Origin: Paracoccaceae bacterium
Lineage (GTDB): Bacteria; Pseudomonadota; Alphaproteobacteria; Rhodobacterales; Rhodobacteraceae
Length of the DNA stretch: 33,896 nucleotides
NCBI GenBank assembly: GCA_020425125.1
Contig: JAGQRV010000031.1
Location: 1-33,896, forward strand
Reading direction: 5' to 3'
Positions 13,690 through 14,171 of this stretch are shown one piece after another. A model generated the notes under the pieces. The model worked only from the letters and a program-made list of their open reading frames with translations, ran no database searches and was not told the origin of the DNA. The translations under genes were made by a program, and so were the position numbers. Position 1 is the first letter of the stretch. Every line of letters starts with the position of its first letter.

Positions 13690-14154
13690 TCAACCCGCGC
13701 TGCGCCGGGGCCGGCGGCTGCCGGGATAGCTGGCGGTTTCCGGCTGGTCCCCGGCGCGGGCGCGGTCGGGCCGCAGCGGCGCCTGCGCACCCTCGTCGTG
13801 CAGCAGCCGGTCGAGCAGCGGCGAGATGTCCTCCACCGTCTCGGCGATCACATGGGTGATGCCGGCCTCGCGCTGCAACCGCCCGGTGACCCGCAGCAGC
13901 CGCCCGGCGATCACCGCGCGGCGGAAGCGTTCGAAGATCTTCGCCCAGACGATCACGTTCACCACCCCGGTCTCGTCTTCGAGGGTGACGAAGATCACCC
14001 CCTTGGCGGTCCCGGGCCGCTGCCGCACCAGCACCAGCCCCGCCACCGCGATCCGCGCGCCGTTCGGCGGCCGGTCGATCCAGCCGGCGGGCAGGCAGGC
14101 GGGCGGACGCGGCCAGCGCGGCGGAGAGGTTTCGGTGGGCAGGAACGGAATCAT
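13690..14154 (-). pseudogene. dnaE2: Remnant of error-prone DNA polymerase DnaE2 (C-terminal OB-fold only)
   Basis: An open frame of 154 residues. From about residue 28 on it matches the last domain of DnaE2/ImuC, the SOS-induced translesion polymerase subunit: the block [19 protein letters not shown], then [50 protein letters not shown] full DnaE2 is over 1000 residues; the polymerase, PHP and helix-hairpin-helix parts are all missing. The first 27 residues are Pro/Arg-rich and not recognisably DnaE2. The frame starts two bases after a perfect SOS box with no ribosome site. Two readings are possible: a deletion joined the promoter of an imuA-imuB-dnaE2 operon to the end of dnaE2, or it is a LexA-controlled stand-alone OB-fold protein. 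I favour the first. Confidence 0.7.
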
Positions 14155-14156
14155 GG

Positions 14157-14171
14157 GAACAAAGATAGAAC
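14157..14171 (-). promoter_or_regulatory. LexA (SOS) box, alphaproteobacterial type
   Basis: Read on the minus strand the site is GTTCTATCTTTGTTC, a perfect GTTC-N7-GTTC, the established LexA-binding consensus of alphaproteobacteria. It ends two bases before the ATG of the DnaE2 remnant, whose family is a standard member of the SOS regulon. It is 118 bases upstream of the divergent ferredoxin start, so it could also touch that promoter. Confidence 0.75.

Follow-up and report, generated by a model that had tools for sequence, protein, structure and literature searches.

The error-prone polymerase DnaE2 of the ImuA-ImuB-DnaE2 mutasome has likely undergone gene fission in one clade of Rhodobacteraceae (taken in the wide sense), its OB domain now being supplied in trans by a LexA-controlled and probably leaderless gene. 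In the sequences compared here the two products are separate and reciprocally truncated, they co-occur across genomes, both genes carry LexA-type boxes, selection acts on the small gene, and the split forms cluster on the DnaE2 tree. We propose that dnaE2 was cut at the linker that precedes the C-terminal OB domain, that the polymerase body (~960-1000 aa) was kept under its own LexA-type box, and that the OB domain became a gene with a LexA box of its own, which was then fixed beside a ferredoxin gene. Once DNA damage had removed LexA, imuA, imuB, the dnaE2 body and the OB gene would be expressed, each from its own locus, and the mutasome polymerase would form as the OB protein joined the body again in trans. 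Reciprocal truncation and co-retention of the two parts argue for such physical assembly, and the LexA-type boxes argue for joint regulation. The OB domain of fused C-family polymerases is thought to contact the single-stranded template, and the OB protein acting in trans may have this same role in template (ssDNA) handling.

The standalone OB gene

The gene lies in a window of 33,896 nucleotides, the whole stretch of DNA analyzed here, which comes from a draft genome of a Paracoccaceae bacterium. Its features are as follows:

13690-14154, minus strand: open reading frame with an OB domain, 154 aa; start at 14154, stop codon at 13690-13692
14157-14171, minus strand: LexA (SOS) box GTTCTATCTTTGTTC, a perfect GTTC-N7-GTTC, 2 nt before the ATG of the OB gene
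14162-14167, minus strand: predicted -10 element TATCTT, within the LexA box, placed from column conservation in 65 promoters
14184-14189, minus strand: predicted -35 element TTGTGC, separated from the -10 element by 16 nt, placed from TTG-type columns in 65 promoters
14290-14613, plus strand: 2Fe-2S ferredoxin gene (PF00111; Pfam Fer2, E 2.3e-13), the conserved divergent neighbor that marks the locus

An earlier note on this DNA had described an ATG frame opening two nucleotides after a perfect GTTC-N7-GTTC site, as found here, and had matched about 125 of its residues to the OB-fold of DnaE2. The homology is confirmed over a shorter length: residues 22-118, about 97 in number, align to positions 944-1040 of the 1047 positions of the DnaE2 model NF004225 (E 6.8e-32), a stronger match than that to the best PolIII alpha model (2.4e-07). 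The PF01336 OB domain covers residues 36-109 and scores 42.8 bits against a gathering cut-off of 27. The window protein is thus a C-terminal OB domain of the DnaE2 type, recognizable as an OB-fold by both PF01336 score and predicted fold, and the PHP, polymerase and HhH core is encoded not in the same polypeptide but by a separate gene on contig C105. Most standalone OB proteins have a WPRPP linker near their start, and they keep RQRPG, the hallmark OB residues common to fused DnaE2.

An AlphaFold2 model based on 67 aligned orthologues predicts an OB fold with confidence, with five strands and a mean pLDDT of 85.8, low at both ends. The best 50 Foldseek matches to this model, at TM-scores of only about 0.4-0.5, are OB-fold-bearing chains of diverse type (tRNA synthetases, RPA, CST), some of them ssDNA binders, and we read the matched part as probably being the OB domain of those chains; PolIII alpha is absent among these 50. 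By sequence, the OB protein had no significant match among solved structures (best E 0.94). A scan of viral contigs with the protein (query P0001) found no relative, and 829 plasmid records match it.

A reciprocally truncated DnaE2 body

The window's own genome encodes a DnaE2 body at G000:C105:77331-80183, found with query P0002 (DnaE2 without its OB domain, taken from a D. shibae plasmid), in an open frame of only 996 aa. Pfam recognizes the polymerase, finger and HhH domains in it, together with a weak PHP match, and finds no OB domain. The protein ends 26 residues past the last aligned body residue, soon after LRAHPVSFLRGVLTPGW, the point at which fused DnaE2 proteins enter the OB domain. 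The OB-protein query did not detect this gene in the same genome because the body is without an OB domain. Since the rest of DnaE2 is thus present elsewhere without its OB domain, the window ORF is, by these alignments, the other half of a split polymerase, the piece missing from the C-terminus of its own genome's DnaE2.

Among 40 compared DnaE2 loci, 27 are split-type, ending 11-86 residues past the last aligned body residue without an OB domain, and 13 are fused, extending 149-160 residues through the OB domain to SRDFH. A search of 101 genomes (the window's own and its relatives) with the OB protein likewise returned two kinds of match, short frames and the ends of DnaE2 frames. The short standalone frames, present in 25 relatives, are 61-78% identical to the window protein; most of the remaining matches are C-terminal parts of ~1100-1200-aa DnaE2 frames and are mainly 44-64% identical.

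A single dnaE2 gene interrupted by a misassembly or a contig break could also appear as two genes, and the draft assembly of the window genome has 109 contigs. The split is nevertheless present in near-complete genomes: G051, G019 and G041 (1, 2 and 6 contigs, respectively) carry both genes on one contig, separated by ~0.4 Mb or more also when the contig is treated as a circle, and the standalone gene is found at 69 named loci. We have therefore rejected an assembly artefact, to which we assign next to no probability.

G039 (L229, L093), a small genome of 1.9 Mb that is 74% complete, carries a standalone OB frame of more distant relationship (47% identity) with the perfect box GTTCTCTTTTTGTTC upstream, and its fast-evolving DnaE2 body sits on the longest branch of the tree. 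G001 (L106), filed in the window's genus and 74% complete, has a DnaE2 of the other, fused type, which may reflect transfer, contamination or misfiling.

LexA box and promoter of the OB gene

The bare GTTC-N7-GTTC pattern occurs twice in the window against 0.78 expected (21 of 100 shuffles reach as many) and 156 times in the genome, so the evidential weight of the box rests on its position and conservation. In the 101-genome set, a perfect box stands upstream of 26 of the 27 standalone OB genes, the window's own included, the box of G020 having one mismatch (G027 and one G015 match, both at contig edges, were not counted as standalone). The first in-frame ATG follows 1-3 nt past the box in 22 of 26 tabulated genes, the exceptions being G057, G053, G037 and G020. 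In a scan of named genomes, among the loci listed, 65 of 69 standalone OB loci have a perfect box, and the four without one are L166, L200, L206 and L210, the last at a contig edge. These 69 were drawn from 80 loci kept in the scan; not counted are L212, where unrelated sequence adjoins the OB, L221 and L222, which lie at contig edges, and eight loci of the fused type. Conservation of the GTTC-N7-GTTC box at the promoter across orthologues marks the gene as a probable member of the alphaproteobacterial LexA/SOS regulon, and LexA presumably binds there.

The 65 promoters also conserve TATnTT within the box and, 18 nt ahead of it, a TTG-type motif, and in 56 of them the first ATG lies 1-3 nt after the box. 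With a -35/-10-like pair separated by a 16-nt spacer and the expected start on the ATG, transcription of the OB gene probably begins at or next to its start codon, yielding a leaderless message. The box covers the predicted -10 element, so LexA would block this promoter directly. A retained, leaderless, LexA-controlled OB protein had been the second suggestion of the earlier note, and as far as sequence can tell it is sound, except that the protein belongs to a split polymerase as its second half and is not a free new protein. The second perfect GTTC-N7-GTTC of the window, at 20108-20122 on the minus strand, is within chance expectation.

The other mutasome genes and their boxes

The mutasome genes imuA, imuB and dnaE2 are all present in the window's own genome (G000) and are not contiguous in one operon: the imuA-like gene is on C80, imuB on C51 and the dnaE2 body on C105, so that, with the OB gene, four contigs are involved. 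The imuA-like gene (C80:122005-122421; E 4.3e-16, 42% identity) matches no Pfam family and has a perfect box, GAACGCAAGGCGAAC, 16 nt before its likely ATG. Perfect boxes are found in this genome at the OB, imuB and imuA-like genes and a one-mismatch box at the dnaE2 body. Across loci, the imuB box is perfect at 18 of 20 (G046 is cut at the gene start and G047 has a mismatch), and a dnaE2-body box with at most one mismatch is present at 25 of the 26 loci examined, 8 of them perfect and 17, including that of the window's own genome, reading GAAC-N7-GAAT; none was found in G019, where the gene start may be miscalled.

In relatives, GANTC, the CcrM methylation motif, is found no more than 50 nt ahead of the LexA box in 16 of 18 imuB promoters (L107-L126) and 15 of 24 dnaE2-body promoters (L067-L092). 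Its frequency is 6% in background windows of 50 nt, and 10 of the 65 OB promoters have it. A cell-cycle (GcrA/CcrM) input into the mutasome genes is possible.

Co-occurrence of the OB gene and the DnaE2 body

The family comparison covered 296 genomes that are 95% complete or better; OB matches were found in 267 of these and DnaE2 matches in 269. A standalone OB frame, defined by length alone as a frame below 650 aa, is present in at least 131 of the 296 among the matches listed (131 of the best 134 OB matches, down to ~E 1e-38), and 130 of these 131 also have a DnaE2 body. Outside the 131, G130 and G134 match the OB query and lack DnaE2 at the strict cut; the DnaE2 of G130 lies in pieces at contig ends and that of G134 across several frames. 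The reverse situation, a DnaE2 match without an OB match, occurs in 5 of the 296 genomes, and assembly gaps are likely behind it. G050, G109, G183 and G199 have DnaE2 bodies without OB; the usual ferredoxin neighbor was not found in G050, G183 and G199 (G050 has just a 43% relative), and the G109 contig ends 222 nt past the ferredoxin. In the fifth, G333, the dnaE2 match stops at a contig end.

The sole exception among the 131, again among the matches listed, is G057 (L008, L227; 7 contigs, 100% complete), which keeps imuB and the OB gene, the latter with a box 33 nt upstream of the ATG chosen for it. DnaE2 was not found there, and a wider search returned only a 35% match of the replicative-polymerase kind, so in this genome the OB gene can persist without a DnaE2 partner. 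G057 speaks for a different reading, in which the OB domain was freed from DnaE2 for a separate SOS role, whether as a small ssDNA-binding protein or decoy or in partnership with ImuB or the replicative polymerase, and the body works OB-less. The OB promoter and start, which are unlike those of the body and could let the two levels be tuned apart, would suit a separate role, as would the ssDNA binders among the diverse OB-fold chains matched by Foldseek. The near-universal retention of the body beside the standalone gene speaks against it, as do the RQRPG hallmark common to the OB gene and fused DnaE2 and the divergence of the OB protein, which follows the body more closely than the neighboring gene does. 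We consider a separate role improbable, though not negligibly so.

This last comparison comes from a mirror-tree test on 25 genomes with one control gene, the ferredoxin. OB and body distances correlate at 0.65, with a partial correlation of 0.59 given the ferredoxin, and none of 2000 permutations was as high; the corresponding value for the ferredoxin and the body, given OB, is 0.18.

Conservation of the locus and selection on the gene

At 63 of the 69 named loci no more than 600 bp separate the ferredoxin gene from the OB match, and at 66 the ferredoxin is found in the flank; it always occupies the opposite strand. It is also present at 26 of 26 OB loci of the genome set (G039 being outside this count). 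The OB ORF's other neighbor, called DUF2270 in the earlier note, is conserved at that place in none of the 69 loci.

Across 70 standalone genes, 1489 of 2415 pairs fall in the dS range 0.05-1.2, and for these dN/dS (Nei-Gojobori) has a median of 0.21 and a range of 0.02-0.69, dS being rough because the genes are GC-rich. Of the 15 closest pairs, the four from Ruegeria have values of 0.05-0.08, the window gene gives 0.36 and 0.44 against its two closest relatives, and some close pairs are higher, up to 0.69. By these ratios the standalone OB gene is under purifying selection, and the neutral evolution and non-conservation of a deletion scar or pseudogene are not seen.

These results bear on the main claim of the earlier note, that a deletion from the promoter to the late part of dnaE2 had joined a LexA promoter by chance to the dnaE2 tail, leaving a frame open by accident. 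The box does adjoin the last part of a dnaE2-like frame. Comparison of the locus in relatives, however, recovers the same short gene beside the same ferredoxin, with gene, box and neighbor shared across most orthologues, and the median dN/dS of the short frame runs contrary to a scar. Queries with ImuA, ImuB and the DnaE2 body found no match in the window at E below 0.05, and the search of the genome recovered the OB-less body, imuB and the imuA-like gene elsewhere. With conserved orthologues at dN/dS well below 1, the deletion scar was rejected as very improbable.

Comparison with described systems

Fission of DnaE2, with the OB domain returned in trans, would be a variant of the ImuA-ImuB-DnaE2 mutasome. 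The likeness lies in the match of the OB protein to positions near the end of the DnaE2 model, in the presence of imuB and an imuA-like gene, and in the LexA-type boxes before all four parts in the window's genome; the differences are that the OB domain is a gene of its own, that the body ends before it, and that four genes on four contigs replace one operon. Several DnaE2 proteins that lack the OB domain have been described (Timinskas et al. 2013, PMC3919608), possibly truncated bodies of the same kind, and the accessible portions of that paper hold no mention that we found of a separate OB gene, an SOS box or a clade. A 2026 survey of bacterial polymerases (PMC12926913) reports, in its accessible portions, a split ImuB (iPolY + ImuB-C) in DnaE2X systems, which likewise spreads a mutasome component over two genes but divides ImuB, whereas here the polymerase is divided. 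The C-family trees in those portions use the PHP and polymerase domains only, and no description of a split DnaE2 was found there.

The same system in fused form is found on the D. shibae plasmid pDSHI03 (NC_009957.1, L034), with an imuA-imuB-dnaE2 cassette and full-length DnaE2 including OB. G041, which matches Dinoroseobacter shibae, has a contig (C4) that matches pDSHI03 in DnaE2 sequence; beyond that cassette, its contig C1 holds a DnaE2 of the split type together with an OB gene. The full-length cassette of G041 sits on a plasmid typed as conjugative. In its accessible text, the D. shibae plasmid paper (PMC9426580) names only the plasmid's imuA-imuB-dnaE2 cassette, and dnaE2 and imuB were not found in that of a study of LexA in D. 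shibae (PMC6473078); a mention of the OB gene was not found in the accessible portions of these two or of a mycobacterial mutasome paper (PMC10421592). Titles and abstract openings of the literature on DnaE2, ImuB/SOS and LexA regulons, with subscription journals thinly covered, yielded no description of a split DnaE2 or a separate OB gene, and those of the LexA/SOS literature on D. shibae, R. capsulatus and R. pomeroyi likewise none of a split DnaE2. The split DnaE2 with OB as a separate LexA-box gene is a real, conserved and, within the literature searched, new variant of a known system.

The role of the OB domain in error-prone DnaE2 is hard to study when it is fused, and nature has apparently separated it in at least 131 of 296 family genomes; in split genomes it can be deleted, titrated or swapped with the polymerase untouched. 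In the scan for the OB gene, its standalone form is also seen in named Ruegeria, Roseovarius and Rhodovulum genomes. Annotations may treat OB-less DnaE2 as truncated and so overlook a mutasome part. A tentative extension, which we think possible though somewhat unlikely, is that the OB protein is an independently regulated trans subunit of a C-family polymerase, the first within the literature searched, with its amount set apart from that of the polymerase body through a leaderless promoter covered by LexA, making the mutasome switchable between OB-less and OB-bearing forms or allowing the OB to be lent to another polymerase, as might be the case in G057.

Distribution and history of the split

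A tree of 75 DnaE2 bodies, 34 split and 41 fused, was built with a quick IQ-TREE run, with SH-aLRT as its only support measure; G021, G024, G038 and G100, which a motif search had called split, were relabelled fused on the basis of tails of 147-158 residues. The fused/split label requires 2 changes on this tree, against a mean of ~25 when labels are shuffled (0 of 500 shuffles as low), and 32 of the 34 split rows form one clade (SH-aLRT 99). The sister group (SH-aLRT 93) comprises G211 and G125, which are split, and G278 and G319, which are fused, G319 nevertheless carrying the WPRPP linker. An OB gene was not found beside the ferredoxin in any of these four. In G211 the OB gene lies ~1 kb downstream of the body with its own box, GTTCTTGGTATGTTC, and its product still ends in SRDFH, as fused DnaE2 does. 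The OB frame of G125 is long and odd.

The likely order of events is thus from a fused gene to a gene split in place, followed by relocation beside the ferredoxin and loss of the tail. As G125 and G211 fall outside the main split clade, two separate fissions rather than one are possible. Between the DnaE2 body and the OB gene of G211 (C12, L230), at 4432-5307 of the locus, lies an opposite-strand frame of 292 aa with a partial match to arginine deiminase (PF02274, E 4.4e-07), which is perhaps an insertion that caused an early split.
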